From NCBI RefSeq assembly GCF_000763055.1, contig NZ_KN214134.1, positions 341,703 to 392,434 on the forward strand: a DNA stretch of 50,732 nt. Reading direction: 5' to 3'. Source of the DNA: Collinsella sp. 4_8_47FAA (GTDB taxonomy: Bacteria > Actinomycetota > Coriobacteriia > Coriobacteriales > Coriobacteriaceae). Below, piece after piece: positions 1-2,594 of this stretch. The notes beneath the pieces were generated by a model. That model saw only the letters and a program-made list of their open reading frames with translations. It ran no database searches and was not told the DNA's origin. Position 1 is the stretch's first letter. Each line of letters starts with the position of its first letter. A program made the position numbers and the translations under genes.

Positions 1-120
1 GTTGCGGACGGGGGCGCTGGCCAGCACCTCCCCGTCGCGGTCGATCAGGCAGGCCCAGTGCGACGACTTGCCGACGTCCAGGCCGAGCACGGCCGCGGGT
101 CTGGTGGATGGCGCTTTCAC
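1..120 (-). CDS. IS110-family transposase, N-terminal 40 residues (partial)
   Basis: Reading leftward from a GTG at 120-118, 40 codons stay open to the window edge. The peptide contains LGLDVGKSSHWACLIDRDG followed by GEVLASAPV. This is the start of the IS110 DEDD (RuvC-like) domain, and Asp15 is the expected first catalytic acid. A ribosome-binding site (GGAAGG) lies about 8 nt upstream. The rest of the RuvC-like domain and the C-terminal Tnp_20 domain with its serine lie outside the window, so integrity cannot be judged. IS110 enzymes move DNA without terminal inverted repeats, guided by a bridge RNA encoded in a non-coding end. The approximately 250 nt of non-coding DNA just upstream of this start fits that arrangement. 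Confidence 0.85.
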   Translation of the reverse strand, partial: MKAPSTRPAAVLGLDVGKSSHWACLIDRDGEVLASAPVRN

Positions 121-154
121 GGTGGTATCCTTCCGGTAGTCGTTCGACCGGATG

Positions 155-351
155 GCCTCCCCCTCGGCACTCACATTACCAGCCGCGGCGCCTGCCCGGC
201 ACTTTCCTATCAGCCGTCGGGGGCGGCGCGTCCCGCGCCGGCAGCACCCAACAGGCCCTCTCGGGGGCAGGGACGTTCGGCCGTGCGCGGGCGCCCGGTC
301 GGCGGCCCGTTCTGGGCGCGCCTCAATCGTAGCCCGAGACGGTCCCGGGCT
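155..351 (-). ncRNA. Candidate IS110 bridge RNA (target-binding and donor-binding loops)
   Basis: Reading leftward on the minus strand there is a 5' hairpin (351-331, AGCCCG/CGGGCT). Next is a stem (291-285 CCCGCGC with 238-232 GCGCGGG, extended by CGGC 283-280 with GCCG 242-239) around an internal loop. That loop has GAACGTCCC (278-270) on one side, TTGGG (251-247) on the other, and a terminal GCCC/GGGC hairpin. A second such structure follows: CCCCC 223-219 with GGGGG 163-159, and CGGC 216-213 with GCCG 168-165. Its internal loop carries GTAATG at 179-174. The first loop matches the flanking repeat and the second matches the element tip, as target and donor guides would. Position between element end and transposase start, length (about 195 nt) and two-loop layout all follow IS110 bridge RNAs. 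The fold was made by eye and the ends are approximate. Confidence 0.6.
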
Positions 352-369
352 GACAATTTCGACTGTAAT

Positions 370-415
370 GGACGTTCTTAAACGACTAGTCATTCAAGAA
401 CGTCCCCAATGACTA
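370..415. repeat. Two head-to-head copies of a short dispersed repeat, one interrupted by the IS110 end
   Basis: Copy B (387-415, 29 bp) is intact and has inverted ends TAGTCATT and AATGACTA. Its reverse complement differs at two positions from the copy at 22599-22627. Copy A (370-388) is in opposite orientation, shares the TA at 387-388, and is cut off after GGACGTTC by the mobile element. Together they form a near-perfect 36-bp palindrome with arms GGACGTTCTT and AAGAACGTCC. Confidence 0.8.
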
Positions 416-425
416 CCTGCAGAAT

Positions 426-515
426 GAGCGTGGATAATCTCCCGTTTTTGGCTCGGTGACGGTCTCAAAGTGGGAGATTATCCACGCTCGTTTGGCAAGT
501 GTCCGAAAATCCACG
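426..515. repeat. REP-like palindromic repeat, locus 1
   Basis: GAGCGTGGATAATCTCCC at 426-443 is perfectly inverted at 472-489, an 18-bp stem with a 28-nt loop. The following 490-515, read on the minus strand, gives GTGGATTTTCGGACACTTGCC, which resembles the unit at 12.13-12.17 kb. The stretch 416-617 between the mobile element and recQ holds no gene. The recQ promoter was not located. Confidence 0.75.
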
Positions 516-617
516 GTTGCCCGCCTTGGATCGTATTGCCCGTGGTCGGCAGCCGGGCGACGCCGGTCCGCGTGGCGGCGTATAATCGGCGGCAGATGAC
601 TTGGACGTTAGGAAACC

Positions 618-2594
618 ATGACCGATAGCATGCAGCAGATGGCGCTTGACACGCTCGGCGCCTATTTTGGCTACACCTCGTTTCGCCCGGGGCAGGACCG
701 CATGGTGGATGCGATTCTTGCAGGCCGCGATGCGCTGGGTGTTATGCCCACGGGCGCCGGCAAGTCCATTTGCTACCAGGTGCCCGCGCTCATACTGCCC
801 GGCATCACCTTTGTGGTGAGTCCGCTGCTGTCGCTTATGGAGGACCAGACCCGTGCGTTGCTCGCGGCGGGTGCGCGACCCAGCTATCTCAACTCCAGCC
901 TTACTCCGGCCCAGCAAAATACCGTGCTCAAACGGGCGCGCGAGGGCCGCTACCAGCTTATGTACGTGGCGCCCGAGCGTCTGCTCGAGCCGCGCTTTTT
1001 AGCCTTTGCGCAGGAGGCTGCGGCGGACGGCGGCATTGGCGTGCCGCTCGTGGCCATTGACGAGGCCCACTGCGTGAGCCAATGGGGCCAGGATTTCCGT
1101 CCCGCCTATCTGCAGATTCGTGAGTTCATCGATTCCCTGCCGCAGCGCCCCATCGTTGCGGCCTTTACCGCTACGGCGACCGAGCGCGTGCGTGCGGACA
1201 TTCAGCAGATGCTCGGCCTGCAAAACCCCGCGACGGTGGTGACGGGCTTCGATCGCAAGAGCCTCTACTTTGGTTGCGAGGAGATGGGCGACAAGGCCAA
1301 GACTGCCTGGGTGCGCGACTACGTGATTGCGCATTCGAGCGAGAGCGGCATCGTGTATTGCTCGACTCGCAAGACGGTCGATGCGCTGGCGGGCGAGCTT
1401 GCCGAGGCGCTGGGACCCAGTGGCATTCGCGTGGGCCGTTACCATGCCGGCATGGGCAACGACGCCCGCCGCCAGAGCCAGCGTGCCTTTATCGACGACG
1501 ACATTCAGGTGATGGTTGCCACCAACGCCTTTGGCATGGGCATCGACAAGCCCAACGTGCGCTACGTGATCCACAACAACGTGCCCGAGAGCATCGAGGC
1601 ATACTACCAAGAGGCGGGCCGCGCTGGCCGCGATGGCGATCCGGCCAGCTGTCACTTGCTGTGGAACGGTAACGATTTTCGCATGCGCCGCTTTTTGATC
1701 GACCGCGGCGATGCGGCCGACGAGGCGCTCGACGACGAGCAGCGCGCGTGGGCGCTCCAGAACCGTTATCGTCTGCTCAGCCAGATGGAGGGCTACTGCA
1801 ATACCACCGGCTGCCTGCGCGAATACATGCTGCGCTACTTTGGCGACGAGGCCGCGGCCGAGCATGCGGCAGCCGCCGCGGGCGGCACGGCAGACGACGC
1901 CGAGGGCTGCGGCAACTGCAGCAACTGTCTCACGCAGTTCGAGGTCGAGGACGTCACCGATATGGCCCGCGCCGCTGTGCGTTATGTGGCCACGCGTCCC
2001 ATGCGCTTTGGCAAGTCGCTCATCGCCGATGTGCTTCACGGCGGCAACACCGAGCGCATTCGCCAGATGCATTTGGACGAGGACTGCGGCTACGGTGAGC
2101 TGTCGAGCGAATCGGTCGGGCGCATCAAGGATATCATCGGCCAGCTGTGCGGCCGCGGTTATCTGGCCACCTCGCAGGGGCAGTACCCAGTCGTGGGACT
2201 GGGTCCGCGTGCCGGCGAGGTCGAGGACGAGGCGTTCGCCTTTACCGTTAAGCGTCGCGCGTCCAAGCGCAAGGCCTCGGCCCGCGCCCGCCGCGCCGTC
2301 GATCTGCTGCGCGAGGAGGCCGAGCTGGATCAGCGCCCGCGCGTTGGCGACGATGCCGAGCTGTTCGAGCGCCTGCGTGCCCTCCGCAAGGAGATCTCGA
2401 CCGAGCTGGAGATGGCGCCGTATATGGTCTTTTCCGACAAGGCCCTGCGCGGCCTGTGCCGCCTGCGTCCGCAGACGCGCGAGGAGCTGATCCAGGTCAA
2501 CGGCATTGGCGAGAAAAAAGCCGACGCCTTTGGCGAGCAGTTTATGGCGGCGATTGAAGAATTTGAGTCCGAGCATGCGCGGGATGGAGCGTAA
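618..2594 (+). CDS. recQ: ATP-dependent DNA helicase RecQ
   Basis: This is a 658-residue 3'-5' DNA helicase of superfamily 2, acting in recombination and fork repair. Walker A TGAGKS is at residues 45-50, followed by the DEAH box in AIDEAHCVSQW, motif III FTATAT, and the motif V/VI region with QEAGRAGRDG. Four cysteines of the RecQ zinc-binding subdomain (CNTTGC and CGNCSNC) come next, then an RQC winged helix and a C-terminal HRDC domain (about 570-650) with the VNGIGEKKADAFGEQF helix-hairpin. Full family length. The ATG is preceded by TTAGGAAACC. The next gene starts 2 nt after the stop, so the two are probably cotranscribed. Confidence 0.96.
   Translation: MTDSMQQMALDTLGAYFGYTSFRPGQDRMVDAILAGRDALGVMPTGAGKSICYQVPALILPGITFVVSPLLSLMEDQTRALLAAGARPSYLNSSLTPAQQNTVLKRAREGRYQLMYVAPERLLEPRFLAFAQEAAADGGIGVPLVAIDEAHCVSQWGQDFRPAYLQIREFIDSLPQRPIVAAFTATATERVRADIQQMLGLQNPATVVTGFDRKSLYFGCEEMGDKAKTAWVRDYVIAHSSESGIVYCSTRKTVDALAGELAEALGPSGIRVGRYHAGMGNDARRQSQRAFIDDDIQVMVATNAFGMGIDKPNVRYVIHNNVPESIEAYYQEAGRAGRDGDPASCHLLWNGNDFRMRRFLIDRGDAADEALDDEQRAWALQNRYRLLSQMEGYCNTTGCLREYMLRYFGDEAAAEHAAAAAGGTADDAEGCGNCSNCLTQFEVEDVTDMARAAVRYVATRPMRFGKSLIADVLHGGNTERIRQMHLDEDCGYGELSSESVGRIKDIIGQLCGRGYLATSQGQYPVVGLGPRAGEVEDEAFAFTVKRRASKRKASARARRAVDLLREEAELDQRPRVGDDAELFERLRALRKEISTELEMAPYMVFSDKALRGLCRLRPQTREELIQVNGIGEKKADAFGEQFMAAIEEFESEHARDGA

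Follow-up and report, generated by a model that had tools for sequence, protein, structure and literature searches.

A candidate bridge RNA in an IS110-group element of Collinsella, matched to a dispersed REP-like palindrome

What brought an insertion sequence into the dispersed repeat that it interrupts at the left edge of a Collinsella DNA stretch? The window (i.e., the whole stretch analyzed, 50,732 nucleotides, G000:C1:341703-392434) had been thought, from its letters, to encode on its minus strand a bridge RNA whose target loop matches the interrupted repeat. Bridge RNAs, a recently described type of guide RNA, have been characterized mainly on IS621. Our analysis favors, with a probability of about 0.92, an IS110-group element whose left end would encode a bridge RNA aimed at GAACGTCCCCAA, in a lineage re-aimed from runs of C (C-runs). 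The original prediction of a candidate IS110 bridge RNA is supported: profile matches, IS621-like geometry, the flanks of copies, uninterrupted sites, covariation, and the contrast with a sister lineage all agree.

Window positions 1-369 (minus strand) are the left end (LE) of a 1413-bp IS110-group insertion sequence, as delimited by the ends and lengths of its copies. The full element, expected to the left of the window, was retrieved; it extends about 1 kb beyond the window's left edge (locus L010, G000:C1:339900-342600). Most complete copies start with ATTACAG, end with GGAACAC, and measure 1413 bp (1415 bp in L057 and 1414 bp in L073). The 5' part of the transposase gene occupies 1-120 (minus strand; frame VKAPSTRPAAVLGLDVGK...), with a probable GTG start at 120-118, and about 250 nt of noncoding sequence precede the start codon. 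The source genome (G000) has three copies, all with N's within their transposase genes, the window copy included; open frames were found in copies from other genomes. In L057 the transposase is split over two reading frames. Internal deletions (L063, L066, and L071) or an interrupted transposase gene (L061 and L062) characterize further copies, and the left ends and targets of these are normal.

The protein of an intact copy (L199, genome G012) matched PF01548 (DEDD_Tnp_IS110, 113 bits) and PF02371 (78 bits), both over the cut-off, and thus contains both the DEDD (RuvC-like) and the Transposase_20 domains. It also matched NF033542, "IS110 family RNA-guided transposase," with 201 bits (cut-off, 140). 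A profile built from seven relatives matched the solved recombinases IS621 (E value, 7.5e-14) and ISCro4 (1.1e-13), and more weakly TasH (1.8e-5), in each case through the C-terminal half. Residues D13, D59, D101, D104, and S299 are invariant across seven transposases. The serine region aligns with IS621 in a significant stretch and the KTD..DA motif in a weak one; from the motif, we take D13 and D59 to be catalytic residues. These protein similarities support membership in the IS110 group. The IS1111 group was considered as a separate assignment and rejected: the element's noncoding region lies upstream of the gene and not, as usual in that group, downstream, and subterminal inverted repeats of 11 to 13 bp were not found in the element of L070, in which inverted matches between the outer 40 nt of each end reach 9 bp when one mismatch is allowed.

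In the predicted fold of the noncoding left end (minus strand), a 5' stem-loop precedes two hairpins, each with an internal loop. The stem-loop (331-351), at the 5' side of the putative bridge RNA, appears in the minimum-energy fold, which was computed for the window copy, and lies outside the covariation alignment described below. The target-binding hairpin (230-293) is formed by a stem of 293-280 with 242-230 around an inner hairpin (268-255), and the donor-binding hairpin (156-226) by pairing of 226-212 with 171-156 and, approximately, of 200-195 with 188-182. The first loop reads GAACGUCCC plus UUGGG, and the second reads AUAGGAA plus GUAAUGUG. The candidate left target guide GAACGTCCC (278-270) and right target guide TTGGG (251-247), the complement of CCCAA, lie on the minus strand exactly where they had been placed beforehand, and the minimum-energy fold contains the bulged stem with a small hairpin between the two strings that had been described. 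In this fold, the terminal CCC of the left guide is paired to GGG in the right guide, which would leave the loop of the free RNA partly closed.

Beside the element, the left target half GAACGTCC (377-370, minus strand) reaches the junction, with the element beginning ATTACAG at 369. It is the left half of an interrupted REP-like palindrome (370-413), whose intact opposite unit AAGAACGTCCCCAATGAC was found at 396-413 (G000:C1:342098-342115), in agreement with the original description of an interrupted repeat. The first loop matches both halves of GAACGTCC^CCAA, the left target in the sense of bottom-strand pairing and the right target in the sense of top-strand pairing. The two loop sides had been said to match the target, and together they do spell GAACGTCCCCAA; the refinement is that the target has four C's.

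The flanks of other copies show the same target. Loci fetched for the element came from 16 Collinsella genomes and gave 27 distinct 40-nt left flanks, some of which may represent one ancestral insertion (L029 and L032; L060 and L067 in the same locus), while one flank string stands for two sites (L066 and L069). Copies in unrelated targets, which would have spoken against guidance by this loop, did not appear: GAACGTCC terminates 26 of the 27 left flanks and GAATGTCC the remaining one, and all 16 right flanks found begin with CCAA. The bases immediately upstream of GAACGTCC vary (AA, GG, or TA). Wherever a fetched copy shows the complete loop, it reads GAACGTCCC or GAATGTCCC, together with TTGGG; four loops are truncated ahead of the right guide and three ahead of the left. 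The GAATGTCC site belongs to genome G007, at all six loci of which GAATGTCCC replaces GAACGTCCC. At the other five G007 loci the target is GAACGTCC, and a G-U pair would still allow the variant guide to fit it. Two repeat families are hit, of the AAGAACGTCCCCAAYGAC and GGAACGTCCCCAA types, and the guide footprint is common to both.

Joined flanks of eight sites were searched against 41 genomes, and 30 loci were fetched. For five sites (L012, L057, L070, L073, and L074), an uninterrupted orthologue reads GAACGTCCCCAA with nothing gained or lost; the empty site of L070 is identical to G011 over 220 of 220 bases, and one additional L074 orthologue has CCCT in place of CCCC. Orthologue alignments for L010 and L060 were partial or shifted only, and none was obtained for L064 among the loci fetched. 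Insertion is thus conservative, at GAACGTCC^CCAA. The target carried four C's before insertion, so that the loop strings and the target overlap by CC within CCCC.

The target is a dispersed REP-like palindrome. One of its arms, TTGGGGACGTTCTT..GACTAGTC, is present in 20 of the 41 genomes searched from the genus, with 5 to 20 exact arms in each. Within these 41, all 14 genomes carrying the element have the palindrome and all 21 palindrome-free genomes lack the element, a co-occurrence that lends weak support, since shared ancestry may still contribute to these counts. Genes for REP-associated transposases lie between palindromes of related sequence. Among 14 scanned Y1-transposase loci, three (L223, L225, and L228) have flanking palindromes (TTGGGGACAGACTT..) that are related to, but not exactly, the target repeat. 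These three hold Y1 genes with open frames of 265 to 282 aa and inverted TTGGGGACAGACTT-type palindromes on both sides, a REP/RAYT-like arrangement. The term "REP-like" is therefore used by analogy, with partial support. Separately, a second, different palindrome (GAGCGTGGATAATCTCCC and its inverse; window 426-489) lies between the interrupted repeat and a gene at 618-2594 that we take, from its motifs, to be recQ-like. A stretch similar to this second palindrome also adjoins the copy in L011.

The second loop corresponds to the element's own ends: the donor loop, ATAGGAA plus GTAATGTG, was compared with ATAGGAACACATTAC and matches. The putative left donor guide ATAGGAA (204-210, minus strand) is identical to the ATAGGAA of the right end (ATAGGAACA), whereas the putative right donor guide GTAATGTG (172-179, minus strand; GUAAUGUG in the RNA) complements CACATTAC, the predicted right end (RE)-LE junction of the circularized 1413-bp element (GGAACAC plus ATTACAG). 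In relatives with a variant loop, the two partners change together, as ATAGAGA stands in both the right end and the donor guide in all four for which a right end was seen (L204, L205, L206, and L208). Joining of the ends also creates a promoter-like TTGACA-17-TACAGT in the sequence, in which TACAGT (362-367, minus strand) would act as a -10-like half completed by TTGACA of the right end, with a spacer of 17.

A CC core shared by donor and target had also been proposed, and this part of the prediction did not hold: flanks and empty sites show that the two have one C only in common at the crossover. Because of the C-run, two registers fit (AC in the donor and CC in the target, or CA and TC, respectively), and we claim no single core. 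A shared core dinucleotide, CT-like as in IS621, was not found in the element's donor and target. In IS621, CT is present in both donor and target, with the first base less strict (PMC11208158). Descriptions of a CT core concern IS621 and related orthologues, so our result bars the label "IS621-type core" but not membership in the IS110 group.

Covariation carries the structural part of the argument. The alignment comprised 15 divergent sequences (15 of 20 representatives), and the helices scored were those of the two hairpins (helices 2 to 4 in the target-binding and 5 to 7 in the donor-binding hairpin) and a closing helix, with the RNAalifold pairs between the left and right target guides omitted. 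The covariance fold showed that the stems covary, as had been anticipated: 93.1% of cells were paired and 58 were changed on both sides, in a structure that derives from the same alignment and is hence favored by the test. Four of five covariation measures were reached in 0 of 500 shuffles, and the fifth (further pair types) did not exceed them, 250 of 500 reaching its value. With the helices slid by 1 to 3 columns, 31 to 50% of cells were paired. Fold energy was unremarkable at 155-351 (z, -0.90; 38 of 200 shuffles as stable) and better at 125-376 (z, -2.96; 1 of 200). The predicted structure therefore rests on covariation, energy being weak evidence for 155-351. No match to Rfam was obtained for window 1-620 at an E value of ≤1. 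Among 60,000 dinucleotide shuffles of the noncoding region, 373 contained GAACGTCC anywhere and 25 contained it followed by TTGG within 8 to 40 nt.

The contrast with related elements indicates how this target may have arisen. Sister element B (10 copies in G001 and 3 in G023) and other relatives keep the scaffold and the donor loop, with a run of G (G-run) in place of TTGGG. The proteins of B and the nearest others are 63 to 66% identical to that of the element, and those of further ones about 50%. Left flanks end in at least three C's in all 22 relatives having one. Among loops other than those of the element itself, a G-run occupies all 12 that were classified by script, and the seven unclassified ones show it by eye. 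In a tree of 22 transposases, the element belongs to a clade of 12 rows (support, 99/98), and a G-run is present in all nine of the other members; the seven rows that escaped the script's pattern lie outside this clade.

Empty sites of B were sought by querying 10 sites. Among the loci fetched, six of the 10 had uninterrupted orthologues: at L077, L080, L084, L088, and L092, at least one orthologue has six to eight C's (with about five C's or a broken run in further orthologues of L077 and L088), and that of L086 has about five. L085 had more distant orthologues only, with at most four C's, and among these fetched loci no uninterrupted orthologue was found for three sites. C-run length varies among strains, and the sites therefore do not fix how many C's the B circle carries. 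At its five variable positions (GTCTG), B's left guide fits the 16 flanks of B no better than chance, with 192 of 1,024 five-mers doing equally well; the left guide is thus not decisive in every member. For B, the target-loop rule (left guide like the target, right guide complementary to it) fits in the C/G-run part only, and only the C/G-run seems to matter there.

Since the nearest relatives share the scaffold but have a G-run loop and C-run sites, the lineage of the element was probably re-aimed. The simplest history would be that the C-run loop is ancestral and that the lineage altered both halves of the target loop, which would have turned a G-run loop directed at C-runs toward a plentiful REP-like palindrome. 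By analogy with IS621, the element would be excised as a circle with the junction GGAACACATTACAG, the joined ends would form a promoter transcribing the bridge RNA, and the recombinase, using this RNA, would bring the circle to its target for strand exchange.

Could the loop letters owe their likeness to the target to something other than guidance? Certain transposases recognize folded DNA, and the insertion sites do sit in palindromic repeats; the recombinase protein or the shape of the palindrome might thus select the repeat, with loop likeness a by-product, and the misfit of B's variable left-guide bases to its flanks points the same way. We consider this very unlikely. The guide footprint is what the two repeat families that are hit have in common, the variant guide GAATGTCCC accompanies the GAATGTCC site (a single case), and relatives with the same scaffold and proteins 63 to 66% identical combine a G-run loop with C-run sites. 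More improbable still is a role of the RNA in regulating transposase expression instead of guiding. This reading could appeal to the position of the hairpins just upstream of the transposase start and to the precedent of ISPpu9, which resides in Pseudomonas REPs and has two regulatory small RNAs according to its description (PMC8450116), but it leaves unexplained two loops that match target and donor in IS621 geometry. A regulatory role in addition to guiding would be compatible with these observations. We give almost no weight to the last alternative, in which the loop letters are a coincidence in GC-rich sequence and the copies spread by homologous recombination between repeats and not by transposition. 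The region is indeed very GC-rich and the fold energy at 155-351 is not significant, but left and right guides in order are rare in shuffles (25 of 60,000) and the hairpins covary, and empty sites at the same places in other genomes, together with differing outer flanks, largely contradict such spread. Guidance of the element by its left-end RNA is the reading that we retain.

Several copies are rearranged. Downstream of the right end in G117 (L193:2750-3000) lies a perfect inverted copy (231 bp, 100% identity) of the left flank and bridge-RNA gene of the same element. The join falls within the right donor guide, between CAC and ATTAC, and the element thus appears to have recombined with its own guide gene. 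Tandem left ends occur in L068 (positions 690-1000 in element orientation; G007:C1:1038800-1042000), the only GAATGTCC site, where 235 bp of noncoding sequence precede a full copy and the join reads CGACTACC. In L189 and L206, a copy stands directly behind the apparent right end of another, GGAACACCC and GAGACACCCCCC, respectively, being followed by ATTACAG, as in tandem elements.

With one base shared at the crossover, the clade may recombine by a rule of its own. The GGGUG of the target loop is invariant in the 15 aligned sequences, and its UG complements the donor end rather than the target. Most members combine GGGUG in the target loop with AUGUG in the donor loop, and the GUG of both complements the CAC of the donor. 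One tentative and, in our view, rather unlikely proposal is that the clade recombines without a shared core dinucleotide and that pairing of the donor strand with the target loop (the handshake step) mainly licenses strand exchange. If so, the target would be left free to change, and both the C-run habit and re-aiming at the REP-like repeat by loop change alone would be explained.

The element resembles IS621, an IS110 element of Escherichia coli, as far as that system is described, in its DEDD recombinase with a catalytic serine region; in a noncoding left end upstream of the gene; in the order of 5' stem-loop, target loop, and donor loop; in joined ends that would form a promoter; and in the relation of the guides to the target, whose left half the left guide repeats and whose right half is complementary to the right guide, the geometry reported for IS621 (PMC11208160). 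The structure matched by the element's relatives is also that of IS621 (8wt6). Unlike IS621, the element has the target GAACGTCCCCAA and one C common to donor and target instead of a CT core, and only the C-terminal half of its protein aligns significantly. IS1111-group elements with seekRNA (such as ISEc11 and ISPa11) are also RNA-guided DEDD elements, but their inverted repeats are subterminal, their noncoding region usually lies downstream, and their guides come in reverse order (PMC11187229). Insertion sequences in REPs were described in 2006 (PMC1525189). Insertions of IS621 with the wild-type guide were scored against REP elements (PMC11208160), ISPa11 is reported to target a Pseudomonas REP, and ISEc11 and ISXne4 exemplify natural redirection between relatives (PMC11187229); REP targeting and natural redirection are therefore already known. 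Among the titles and abstracts listed from the open literature on Collinsella insertion sequences or IS110, Collinsella palindromic repeats, and IS110 C-run targets, no such element, repeat, or target was found. As far as this literature shows, what is new here comprises the element and the clade around it, insertion in C-runs, and the one-base crossover. A further close comparison is offered by the C-run sisters (the Coriobacteriia elements B, C, and D and their relatives), which have the same scaffold and donor loop and nearly the same element ends but differ in a G-run instead of TTGGG, another left guide, and C-run insertion sites. In this Actinomycetota lineage, nature appears to have swapped the guide, placing two target loops and two kinds of target on one scaffold and donor loop. 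The result is a matched pair of elements for asking which loop positions decide the target and whether a common core is needed, and the pair also bears on how such elements come to occupy REP-like palindromes, as IS621 does in E. coli.
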